Shown: positions 49,896 to 56,978 of the stretch, piece by piece | Numbering within the stretch: position 1 is the stretch's first letter | Layout of the letters: every line of letters begins with the position of its first letter | Assembly (NCBI RefSeq): GCF_030687395.1 | Contig: NZ_CP117430.1 | Coordinates: forward strand, 3,410,001 to 3,474,000 | Direction: 5' to 3' | Source: Pseudomonas wuhanensis | GTDB lineage: Bacteria; Pseudomonadota; Gammaproteobacteria; Pseudomonadales; Pseudomonadaceae | DNA length: 64,000 nt | Position numbers and translations under genes: made by a program | Notes under the pieces: generated by a model | Database searches by the model: none | The model's input: only the letters and a program-made list of their open reading frames with translations | What the model was told of the DNA's origin: nothing

Positions 49896-51137
49896 ATGCG
49901 CAAACCTTTAATAGATATAAGTCCACCTCGATTACTTGGGTTTTGCCTTGCAATAACTTTTTTCGAACTTCTGACTTATATGGCCAGCGATATGATCATG
50001 CCGGCCATGTTGACCGTAACCCATCAATTGAATGCCAGCCCGAGCCATGTTCCTTACGCCTTCAATCTTTATTTGGCGGGGGGCATTTTTTTGCAATGGT
50101 TAATCGGTCCGTTGTCAGATCACTTCGGTCGTCGCAGGACGCTGCTGATCGGTTGTGCTGTATTCGCCTTCGCCTGCACCGCAGCGTTCAACGTACAGAG
50201 CATCCTTGCCTTCAACGGCTTGCGGCTGATTCAAGGCATGGGATTGGGGTTCATCATCGCGGTGAGCTATCCAGCCTTGCAAGAAATCTTCTGCGAAGCC
50301 GACGCAGTAAAAATCATGGCGTTGCTGGGAAACGTTGCGCTGCTCTCCCCGCTGCTGGGGCCCTTGCTCGGCAGCCTGATGCTGGAATGGCTCTCCTGGC
50401 GGGAGCTATTTTTACTCTTGGGGGTCAGTGGCGCGATAGCCTGGCTCGGGCTTTACCTGTTCATGCCGGAAACCGTGGGCACCTTGCGCCATGACGGACA
50501 GCGACTGACGGCAGTGCCTTTTGAATGGGGCGGTACGCTGCGCCGCTATACAGCCTTGCTCACCAACCCGCCATTTCTGAGCGCAACCGTCGCCCTGGGC
50601 CTGATGAGCTTGCCGCTGATTGCATGGATCGGGCTGGCGCCACTCTTGCTGATCCAGCACCAGGGGCTTTCCCCGCTGCGCTATGGCCTATGGCAGATCC
50701 CGGTATTTGCGGCCGTCATTTTCGGCAATCTGATACTCAACCGATTGATTGCCAATACTGAGCTACCCCAACTGATTCGCTACGCGTTCTGGCCACTTTG
50801 CGGCGGCCTCATCGCCTTGGCCGTCATTTCTTTTACCGGCACTTCAACAGTCCTGTTGGTCAGTTGCCTGTCCCTTTACGCCATCGGTCTTGGCATGAGC
50901 AATGCCGCACTCTACCGGCTCGCACTGTTTTCCAGCGACGACAGCAAAGGCCTGGTGTCGGCCATGGTTGGTATGATTTCCATCGCCGTCATGGGTGGCG
51001 GCGGCTCGATTATCACTGAGCTGGGTGCCGGTGACAGCCTTGAAGCCTTTGCCTTGATGGCCGGTCTCGCGGGGCTCTTGTGCCTGCTGCCCTTGCGATT
51101 GTTTTTGCGACGCTCCCCCATCGCGCATGCCGTCTGA
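49896..51137 (+). CDS. MFS exporter, MdfA/Bcr-like
   Basis: 413 residues with twelve predicted membrane segments. LTYMASDMIMPAMLTVTHQL in segment 1 and GPLSDHFGRRRTLLIG in loop 2-3 match the DHA1 multidrug family; YPALQEIFCEADAVKIMALL and SPLLGPLLGSLM are typical of MdfA. ATG 49896 has AGGAACGTC upstream. It is the first gene of a five-gene operon (21 bases to the LuxE-like gene) and probably exports the operon's product or gives self-resistance (inference). Confidence 0.88.
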   Translation: MRKPLIDISPPRLLGFCLAITFFELLTYMASDMIMPAMLTVTHQLNASPSHVPYAFNLYLAGGIFLQWLIGPLSDHFGRRRTLLIGCAVFAFACTAAFNVQSILAFNGLRLIQGMGLGFIIAVSYPALQEIFCEADAVKIMALLGNVALLSPLLGPLLGSLMLEWLSWRELFLLLGVSGAIAWLGLYLFMPETVGTLRHDGQRLTAVPFEWGGTLRRYTALLTNPPFLSATVALGLMSLPLIAWIGLAPLLLIQHQGLSPLRYGLWQIPVFAAVIFGNLILNRLIANTELPQLIRYAFWPLCGGLIALAVISFTGTSTVLLVSCLSLYAIGLGMSNAALYRLALFSSDDSKGLVSAMVGMISIAVMGGGGSIITELGAGDSLEAFALMAGLAGLLCLLPLRLFLRRSPIAHAV

Positions 51138-51158
51138 CACTACACCATAGGTCTTTAG

Positions 51159-54753: not shown

Positions 54754-56043
54754 GTGAACCCAACTTATTCGCTTGAACAATTAGTACCTTATATAAGGCA
54801 ACACTCAAATTTTTACAGCAAACACCTGGAGCATTTGCCCTCGAAGGGTATTACTTTAAAAGATCTGCCACTAACCGACGTATCCGACTATTGGGCCGGC
54901 AGCAACGATTTGAGTCATTGGCCGGTCCTGACCGGAAACGTCGATGATGCGCTGGTGTTTAAAACCGGAGGTTCGACCAGTCAGGGCAAACTGGCGGTTT
55001 ACTCCTGCGAGGAATGGCAAACACTGGTCAGTACATTCGGAAACAGTCTCTCCTCTCAACTGAACAATGGCGACCGCGTCGCCAATCTGTTCTTTTCAGG
55101 GGATCTCTATGCCAGTTTTCTGTTTATCCACGATTCCCTGGCCCATGTCGGACGATCCATCTGTGAATTTCCGTTTACCGGAGACGTCGAGCTGGACGTA
55201 TTGGCGGATGCCATAGAGCGGTATCGGATCAGCGTTCTGGCCGGAGTGCCGGCACAACTGCTGCGATTCTGCGCCTACCTGGCGCAGCATCGGCGTGTGT
55301 TGTGCGGAGTCGAGACGCTGTTATATGGAGGTGAAAGCCTGTTTGCCCCGCAGTTGGCAATCCTCGGGGAAGTGTTCCCCAATGCCCGTATCGCCTCAAT
55401 CGGCTATGCCAGCGTAGACGCCGGGCTGATAGGCGCCAGTGACCGCGACTGTGCATTGGGCGAGCATCGAGTGTTCGATCAACAAACCCTGTTGGAAATC
55501 GTCGATGAACACACCGGTGAAGTGATTGAAGAATGCGATCGCACCGGCTTGTTGGTACTGACCAACCTGACACGCCGGCTTATGCCGCTGCTGCGTTACC
55601 CGGTGGGCGACCGTGCCTGTTGGCGTGAGCCGGCCGCAACCCCGAGGCGTAAATTCGCGCTCAAAGGGCGCGGTGCCCACAGTCAACGAATACGAGTCGG
55701 CGTTCTATCGCTGTTCACCGAAGAAATACACGAGATCGTTCAGCGTGTAGCGCACAGCGAACAATGGCAATTGCTGATCGAACAGACCGGCACCAAGGAT
55801 CTGTTGAGCGTGAAGTGGGTGCCCGATCCTCAGTTGCAAGCCGTCGACTCGATGCTCCGCGCATTGCATGAAGCGCTGCTTGCCCACTACCCCGCCATCG
55901 ACAACCTGATCCGTCAGGGTCTGCTGGAGTTGCGAGTGCTGGCCTGCGCAACCACCGACCTGAAGCTTCACCCTCGTTCAGGCAAACAACTGCGGGTGCT
56001 GGATTCGCGCGTGTATGACGTTCTCCCACTGGAGCCCGTGTGA
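54754..56043 (+). CDS. CapK/PaaK-like adenylate-forming enzyme
   Basis: 429 residues starting GTG 54754 (AAAAGAGAACCCA upstream). VFKTGGSTSQGKLAVYSCEE is the nucleotide loop, VLAGVPAQLLRFCAYLAQHR and LLYGGESLFAPQLAILGEVF follow, and PLLRYPVGDRACW is the second motif, the pattern of phenylacetate-CoA ligase-like enzymes. It is a paralogue of the C-terminal domain of the preceding protein. The first 90 bases and the gap before it are notably AT-rich. Substrate unknown; an aryl or short acyl acid is likely. Confidence 0.85.
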   Translation: MNPTYSLEQLVPYIRQHSNFYSKHLEHLPSKGITLKDLPLTDVSDYWAGSNDLSHWPVLTGNVDDALVFKTGGSTSQGKLAVYSCEEWQTLVSTFGNSLSSQLNNGDRVANLFFSGDLYASFLFIHDSLAHVGRSICEFPFTGDVELDVLADAIERYRISVLAGVPAQLLRFCAYLAQHRRVLCGVETLLYGGESLFAPQLAILGEVFPNARIASIGYASVDAGLIGASDRDCALGEHRVFDQQTLLEIVDEHTGEVIEECDRTGLLVLTNLTRRLMPLLRYPVGDRACWREPAATPRRKFALKGRGAHSQRIRVGVLSLFTEEIHEIVQRVAHSEQWQLLIEQTGTKDLLSVKWVPDPQLQAVDSMLRALHEALLAHYPAIDNLIRQGLLELRVLACATTDLKLHPRSGKQLRVLDSRVYDVLPLEPV

Positions 56044-56978
56044 TGAACCGGTTGATTGTTCGGCCCTTCCGTCCCTCCGACTCCATTGCCGTGAGCCAGT
56101 TATTCCGAGAGGTCTACGGCGATCATTATGTTCAGCCAGATATCTACCTGCCGAACATGATCAGTCAGCACCACGCCGAAGGCAGCTGGCAATCGATGGT
56201 AGCCGTGGACGACGGCCGCGTTCTCGGGCATGCCGCGTTGTGTCGTGACACGCCTTCAAGTACCGCGGAACTGGCCCTCAGCGTGGTGCACCCCGCCGCC
56301 CAGGGGCAGAATCTCGCGACCCGCCTGGGCCTTGAGCTACTGAAGCAGTCAGACTCTGTGGGGCTCAAGAGTGTCTCGATCAAGCAAGTGACCCACCATC
56401 CCTACACTCAACGCATGGCGGAAAAAATCGGCTTCCACAGCACTGGCTTGCTTCCTGACTTTGTCCCTTCGCCCTTCGCTGAACCCTTTCCGGAAACCAT
56501 CGTGATGGGCTGCCACCTGATCGCCGGACACATGCGCCCGCTCCCCGACATCCCTTGGCCCGAAAGCTGCCGGGCGTTTATGCAGCACTTGTGTTCGGTG
56601 TTTGGAACCCACCAGGACAAGACATCACGGCCCGCGATGCCCTTGCAAATAAAGCAACAGCAGCATCGGTTCGACATTGTCATTCAGCGTTTGAACACGC
56701 GTTTGCTTGAGCAGATCAGCCAACTACCCAGGCACTGGCTGATCTCGGCACGACTCGAACTGTCCCGGCACTTCGCCCGGGACGTGCACAGTTTTTCGGC
56801 TCTGGGCTTCGCCTTCACCGGCCTGATTCCCACGCCAGGTGACGATGGCTGGTTTGCATTGTTTCATCGAGGCGCACAGGTTCGATCCCTCAATCTGCAT
56901 TGCGTGCACATGCAACAGTTGCATGACGACATGCAGCAGAACGCCAACGCCTCTATTGGTAACCGCTCAGCCGCGTGA
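56043..56978 (+). CDS. GNAT-family acyltransferase, two-domain
   Basis: 311 residues; ATG 56043 overlaps the previous stop in TGATG, indicating translational coupling. Residues 1-150 are a GNAT fold (LIVRPFRPSDSIAVSQLFRE, LSVVHPAAQGQNLATRLGLE, then YTQRMAEKIGFHSTGLLPDF). The second half (about 170-311) has PLQIKQQQHRFDIVIQRLNT and lacks a recognised motif. As the last gene of the LuxC/LuxE-type operon it may N-acylate the product or an intermediate (inference). Its end overlaps the convergent LysR gene by 12 bases. Confidence 0.82.
   Translation: MNRLIVRPFRPSDSIAVSQLFREVYGDHYVQPDIYLPNMISQHHAEGSWQSMVAVDDGRVLGHAALCRDTPSSTAELALSVVHPAAQGQNLATRLGLELLKQSDSVGLKSVSIKQVTHHPYTQRMAEKIGFHSTGLLPDFVPSPFAEPFPETIVMGCHLIAGHMRPLPDIPWPESCRAFMQHLCSVFGTHQDKTSRPAMPLQIKQQQHRFDIVIQRLNTRLLEQISQLPRHWLISARLELSRHFARDVHSFSALGFAFTGLIPTPGDDGWFALFHRGAQVRSLNLHCVHMQQLHDDMQQNANASIGNRSAA

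Follow-up and report, generated by a model that had tools for sequence, protein, structure and literature searches.

The window considered here is the whole stretch of 64,000 nucleotides that was analysed, taken from the chromosome of Pseudomonas wuhanensis (GCF_030687395.1, contig NZ_CP117430.1, positions 3,410,001 to 3,474,000 of the forward strand). Near its 3′ end lies an operon of five genes for a major facilitator superfamily (MFS) exporter, a LuxE-family acyl-protein synthetase, a LuxC-type acyl reductase fused to a CapK/PaaK-type AMP ligase (LuxC-CapK), a second, stand-alone CapK-type ligase and a GNAT acyltransferase (Table 1). The genes are tightly spaced on one strand, separated by 21 bp (MFS to LuxE), 1 bp (LuxE to LuxC-CapK) and 60 bp (LuxC-CapK to the second ligase), and the second ligase and GNAT genes share a TGATG overlap. 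Pfam and NCBIfam agree with these identities. In LuxC-CapK, the Pfam LuxC model PF05893 covers residues 63–413 (8.6e-111) and PaaK/DVU_1553-type AMP ligase models match the C-terminal part at residues 463–723, the DVU_1553-type model itself at 463–700. The second ligase is barely above the cut-off for PF00501 (2.3e-07) and is better described by a DVU_1553-family model of NCBIfam (1.3e-25). The exporter scores 334 bits with the NCBIfam model of the MdfA family, under its cut-off of 439. Among the 19 open reading frames (ORFs) of the window given to Pfam, none encodes a luciferase, polyketide synthase, nonribosomal peptide synthetase (NRPS) or carrier protein, the remaining genome not having been searched for them. 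A scan 5′ of the operon gave no promoter-like site and one terminator-like site, which does not exceed those in shuffled sequences. The coordinates and identities of the genes and the missing partners had been described in an earlier note on this DNA and are confirmed.

Table 1. Genes of the P. wuhanensis operon (positions in the window)
Feature	Position	Strand	Remark
MFS exporter (MdfA/Bcr-like), 413 aa	49896-51137	+	PF07690 2.4e-34
LeupA-like LuxE-family acyl-protein synthetase, 376 aa, acyl-acceptor Cys C365	51159-52289	+	PF04443 9.7e-23
LeupB-like LuxC acyl reductase (C246) fused to PaaK/CapK-type AMP ligase, 800 aa	52291-54693	+	
LeupC-like stand-alone PaaK/CapK-type AMP ligase, 429 aa	54754-56043	+	
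LeupD-like GNAT N-acyltransferase, 312 aa	56040-56978	+	ATG at 56043 overlaps LeupC-like stop

The candidate active sites are conserved. In a phmmer search of the PDB, the LuxE and LuxC proteins of the window match chains of 7xc6, the LuxE–LuxC fatty acid reductase of luminous bacteria (2e-14 and 2e-11). C365 is aligned with a cysteine near the C-terminal end of the LuxE chain (7xc6_E) and C246 with a cysteine in the QQAC stretch shared with the LuxC chain (7xc6_A); we take both aligned cysteines to be the catalytic residues of LuxE and LuxC, in line with the earlier note, which had named C365 as candidate acyl cysteine and C246 as catalytic. C365 is kept in all 51 aligned LuxE rows, which include 10 database proteins and two loci that are not leupeptin (leup) operons (L102 and L103). 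C246 and residue K791 of the fused ligase are each invariant in 39 of 39 rows, and K411 of the second ligase in 38 of 38, a set that leaves out L118 (its ORF is intact); sequences with stops or low coverage were excluded from these rows. K791 and K411 presumably play the part of the lysine of the ANL/PaaK family. A scan with LuxC-CapK of a collection holding one genome per species gave 16 loci, 15 in Pseudomonas and one in Parachitinimonas caeni, and all five genes occur together in each of the 16. Against six relatives, pairwise dN/dS values are between 0.06 and 0.24 for every one of the five genes. Such values indicate that the operon is kept by selection and, with the joint occurrence in 16 of 16 related loci, place the five-gene set far beyond chance. 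The five genes are intact and under purifying selection.

The likeness to luminous bacteria stressed by the earlier note is upheld at the level of the two domains and their aligned acyl-cysteines; in sequence it is distant, LuxC is fused to an AMP ligase, luciferase genes are not found nearby and a peptide acid, not a fatty acid, would be the expected substrate. The close likeness is to leup operons. The genes leupABCD and a transporter have been characterized in Xenorhabdus, Photorhabdus and Klebsiella oxytoca/michiganensis (PMC11480411, PMC8283571, PMC11212599). The K. oxytoca operon is reported to stay silent in customary media and to respond to Neu5Ac (PMC11480411), and antiSMASH has been reported to mark a leupeptin region in Photorhabdus khanii (PMC12542766). 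In K. oxytoca CAV1374, the leup locus spans positions 315353–321183 of CP011636.1, with the transporter adjoining leupABCD, and the primers leupA_f and leupB_r give a product of 1,235 bp (PMC8283571). Of 384 genomes of the family, four match the core primer of that study; they belong to two genera, and three come from the genus g40, taken as Klebsiella. One of 20 genomes of this genus, G1065, carries an exact leupA_f site. At its locus (L147), leupA_f and leupB_r both find exact sites that would yield the published product of 1,235 bp; they fall on the orthologue of the window LuxE gene and on the start of that of LuxC-CapK. Projected onto G1065 from the primer, the CAV1374 span starts 2 bases and ends 5 bases off the stretch from LuxE to GNAT, assuming collinear genomes. 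The primer positions and the projected span identify leupA as the LuxE-like gene, leupB as LuxC-CapK, leupC as the CapK-type ligase and leupD as the GNAT gene. An unrelated leupA had been suspected, since the translation of the primer (MKIAIHN) starts none of the LuxE relatives compared; it was ruled out because the primer binds within the gene, ~50 bases in, and in a different frame.

The order of all five genes is identical in the window and in G1065, with protein identities of 63.5% for LuxE and LeupA, 53.9% for LuxC-CapK and LeupB over residues 1–800, 51.6% for the second ligase and LeupC, 36.4% for GNAT and LeupD, and 49.3% for the exporter and the MFS protein encoded directly upstream of leup. 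Since this exact gene set and order is that of leupABCD plus transporter, by primer-anchored orthology, the novelty implied by the earlier note is not supported: at the level of the family, the genes match a characterized cluster with a known product. Judged by its genes, the operon is a Pseudomonas version of a known one, and the kind of pathway is not new. What the earlier note proposed of the chemistry, a compact carrier-free route to an exported, aldehyde-derived and N-acylated metabolite, agrees with the leup product, an N-acylated tripeptide aldehyde.

Collectively, the window very probably holds an operon of the leupeptin family that uses neither NRPS nor carrier protein and makes a short N-acyl peptide aldehyde. 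The protease inhibitor leupeptin (acetyl-Leu-Leu-argininal) or one of its close analogues is the most likely product. In Xenorhabdus bovienii SS-2004, leupeptin is made by a non-NRPS route in which separate AMP-dependent ligases form the amide bonds and a reductase forms the aldehyde (PMC11212599), and this is what the domains of LeupA–D predict. Applied to the window, GNAT (LeupD) would use an acyl-CoA to cap the first residue at its amino end, and LeupC together with the CapK domain of LeupB, the AMP-forming ligases, would form the two amide bonds. The peptide acid would then be activated once more, and the LuxE (C365)/LuxC (C246) pair would reduce the acid to the aldehyde with NADPH, before export of the peptide aldehyde by the MFS protein. 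We infer the enzyme tasks, residue identities, cofactor and export. The scheme fits the count of enzymes, because three adenylations are required, one for each of the two amide bonds and one for the reduction, and the operon encodes as many adenylating units, namely LuxE, the CapK domain and the separate CapK protein.

LuxE matches occur in 68 of 298 Pseudomonas genomes, 61 of them close (59–100% identity, E 2e-150 or better) and seven weak. LuxC-CapK is matched somewhere in 112 of 398 Pseudomonadota genomes, at full length only in the genome of the window and in G587 (54%). In an Enterobacteriaceae-type family, a close LuxE (query, the LuxE of L118) is present in 15 of 392 genomes, and two genera among the matches are probably Xenorhabdus and Photorhabdus, as judged from N-termini common with named proteins. 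Homologues were listed as the best 120 of 1,051, 1,104 and 1,277 matches. Among the matches listed, close LuxE proteins come from Photorhabdus, several Xenorhabdus, Klebsiella aerogenes, Providencia, Yersinia, Erwinia, Chromobacterium, Burkholderia and P. entomophila, and L118 LuxE is 62–66% identical to named proteins of Photorhabdus, X. bovienii and other Xenorhabdus. No description of a leup operon in Pseudomonas was found in the literature searched, the coverage of which excludes Li et al. 2020, reportedly the primary leupeptin-operon paper, so that absence from print is not claimed.

On plasmids, the second ligase is found (E 1e-15 or better) in six of 72,556 records, and the same six carry a near full-length LuxE of at least 49% identity (among the best 20 of 32 records matching LuxE); they comprise two Salmonella, two Streptantibioticus cattleyicolor and two Streptomyces records. 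On the conjugative IncF plasmid CP053580.1 of Salmonella enterica (L098, positions 8596–14758), the operon copy has a shortened MFS gene and a GNAT gene split into two frames; it is followed by recombinase genes, and IS1182-family transposase genes are found several kb upstream of it. A search of E. coli genomes in ‘near’ mode gave no match to this plasmid copy. In the Streptomyces-type records, the order is ligase, MFS, GNAT, LuxE and LuxC-ligase, from annotation in L101 and from similarity in L099 and L100, MFS excepted. The window MFS does not detect the MFS of these records in a similarity search, and the Streptomyces-type exporter may therefore have been independently recruited.

In the window, the operon is preceded by pvdQ on the opposite strand (NCBIfam equivalog, 1489 bits, cut-off 950) and by a gene of 133 aa without Pfam match between pvdQ and the operon, which probably resembles PA2384 beside pvdQ in P. 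aeruginosa. On the 3′ side follow a LysR regulator gene on the opposite strand and an aldo-keto reductase gene. The host genome is a single contig of 6.59 Mb with one PF04443 match. Positions 40089–44909 of the window, upstream of a FecR gene and of pvdQ, encode a protein of 1,606 aa that has an N-terminal dermonecrotic-toxin domain (PF20178). The operon is accessory in Pseudomonas. In 14 relatives without a LuxE match, no operon gene was found above 35% identity at E 1e-15, and the pvdQ site is variously occupied: in five, the 133 aa gene is directly followed by the LysR and aldo-keto reductase genes (empty site), in two, other DNA of 4–6 kb lies between the 133 aa gene and LysR, and in seven, LysR was not found within the stretch of 7–11 kb. 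This mixed occupancy mirrors that of the leup site of Klebsiella, which is empty or differently filled depending on the species (PMC8283571). Decay is also seen, with a broken gene in four of the 39 operons examined (L088, L098, L121 and L126), L102 and L103, without ligase and GNAT, being left out of the 39.

How far the product can be specified depends on divergence. LeupA–D of the Klebsiella-type G1065 and of a Xenorhabdus-type locus (L192) are 68, 53, 54 and 44% identical, and those of the window and L192 64, 54, 50 and 40%. Thus, the divergence of the window operon is of the same order as that among lineages with known product, with the identity of LeupD somewhat lower. In a LuxE tree of 51 rows, the window falls within a clade of the P. 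fluorescens group (25 rows, support 99/99). The P. entomophila-type LuxE groups with those of Klebsiella, Yersinia, a Salmonella plasmid and Parachitinimonas (99/95) and belongs to operons at another site, so that two or more entries of the operon into Pseudomonas are probable. Several observations weigh against the leupeptin-family explanation. The P. fluorescens-group clade lies outside the weakly supported group of Photorhabdus, Xenorhabdus and Klebsiella leupA, so that the window is not bracketed by characterized operons, and the deeper forks of the tree are weak (85/62 and 86/72). LeupD is only 36% identical to that of G1065, and the acyl cap or the first residue may differ. The MFS gene is not a constant partner, being not found in the divergent Pseudomonas loci L089–L092 nor in the Xenorhabdus/Photorhabdus-type loci L116 and L193, while L192 and L078 start too close to a contig end for its presence to be judged. 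Finally, no chemistry was found for this strain or for any Pseudomonas.

In a narrower form of this explanation, the pvdQ-site clade of the P. fluorescens group would make another N-acyl peptide aldehyde, changed in its acyl cap, its middle residue or the basic residue that bears the aldehyde. As a separate branch, the clade may make an analogue, and both its strong support and LeupD, the least conserved enzyme at 35–41% identity to the Klebsiella, Xenorhabdus and Photorhabdus-type versions, speak for it, as does the variation of the last residue among known leup operons, K. oxytoca having a lysine analogue and Xenorhabdus/Photorhabdus having homoarginine (PMC11480411). However, LeupA, LeupB and LeupC are about as similar to the characterized kinds of operon as these are to each other, and a distinct product, though quite possible, is on balance not what we expect. 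A role in iron acquisition is doubtful, at best a tentative extension: the operon of this clade, between pvdQ/133 aa gene and lysR, would make a peptide aldehyde other than leupeptin, a breakdown product of which may tune iron uptake. Such a role would explain two apparently independent arrivals in Pseudomonas beside iron genes, one at pvdQ and one at the FecR and TonB receptor genes of L089–L092. In these P. entomophila-type loci, a TonB-dependent receptor gene (~1,005 aa) precedes the operon on the same strand, FecR and sigma-factor genes lie on the opposite one, and a putative esterase gene is close by (receptor, FecR and esterase Pfam-tested in L090, sigma factor in L089, the others assigned from alike ORF starts). 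In K. oxytoca, a pyrazinone derived from leupeptin is reported to affect iron uptake (PMC11480411). The iron link is a suggestion drawn from the two sites and this pyrazinone effect. The same neighbours, together with pvdQ and FecR upstream in the window, had prompted the idea of a siderophore pathway, rejected as the principal explanation because leup orthology explains the genes and no iron gene is obvious beside the operon in the Klebsiella-type, other enterobacterial, Parachitinimonas and Streptomyces loci (by annotation for L101, by ORF starts viewed by eye for the other loci).

Two further explanations depart from the leup family. PaaK-type ligases often act on aryl acids. The operon could accordingly encode a carboxylic acid reductase that acts on a small acid, aryl or otherwise, with later decoration of the product by GNAT and the second ligase. 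A precedent exists in the grixazone pathway, in which GriC, an AMP-binding protein, and GriD, for the reduction, turn a free acid into 3-amino-4-hydroxybenzaldehyde (PMC10179220); that system, however, consists of two proteins with an aryl substrate, and the available text mentions no LuxE or GNAT partner. With no aryl-acid synthesis genes in the operon and the whole set closely orthologous to leup, this explanation is very improbable. Still less credible is surface modification, with LuxE and LuxC supplying an acyl or aldehyde group for the glycan of flagellin or O-antigen, a role that has been put forward for flagellin glycosylation islands. LuxE/LuxC genes do occur in such islands (PMC4875605 and PMC7575072), and in L105 a glycosyltransferase gene has a distant LuxE–LuxC pair nearby, but the islands carry acyl carrier protein (ACP), FabG or sugar genes, and among the 19 Pfam-tested ORFs of the window no glycosyltransferase, flagellar, ACP, FabG or sugar gene was found. 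Two other systems were set aside: Vfm quorum sensing of Dickeya (the Dickeya paper found does not mention vfm, and its LuxE context is different), and Mycobacterium mel2, the paper on which states that there is no clear LuxE homologue.

A leupeptin-type operon remains the best account of the window. It resembles the leup operon in its five genes, their order, the domain fusion, the catalytic residues and 36–64% identity to the G1065 locus, and differs by its separate Pseudomonas clade, its other chromosomal site (pvdQ to LysR) and its most divergent GNAT. Streptomyces also makes acyl or ureido peptide aldehydes that inhibit proteases, such as antipain and flavopeptin, reportedly by an NRPS with a reductase domain (PMC10548850), in contrast to the window operon, which has no NRPS or carrier domain.

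Other LuxE/LuxC arrangements were encountered. On a Streptomyces europaeiscabiei plasmid (NZ_CP109155.1; L102, 6025–14483), a LuxE (42%) and a LuxC without ligase domain lie beside genes annotated as YcaO, metallo-β-lactamase fold and DUF692, and the locus looks like a cluster for a ribosomally synthesized and post-translationally modified peptide with an acid-reduction step. A different Enterobacteriaceae-type cluster (L119, 4004–9447; L120, 8590–13991) combines LuxE (31%), LuxC, a protein with a start like that of a sugar epimerase (by eye) and one ~24% identical to PvdQ. Single proteins of ~820 aa in L079 (9818–12295) and L080 (7650–10115) match both LuxE and LuxC and constitute natural fusions of the reductase halves. 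On a Priestia megaterium plasmid (L104, 4678–10610), a distant LuxE is encoded beside a fatty acyl-AMP ligase, a phosphopantetheine-binding protein and a cysteine desulfurase, and on a Chloroflexota plasmid (CP069395.1; L103, 9968–12369) an isolated LuxE–LuxC pair lies near a heliorhodopsin gene.

The three-activation count provides a concrete scheme for carrier-free synthesis of a peptide aldehyde, and the Streptomyces megaplasmid genes, of the same kinds in a rearranged order, suggest a genetic basis for actinomycete leupeptin. With LuxE as marker, 61 of 298 Pseudomonas genomes, or roughly one sampled species in five, carry a likely pathway for an exported protease inhibitor. Such a molecule could act on proteases of hosts, protozoa, insects or competitors.

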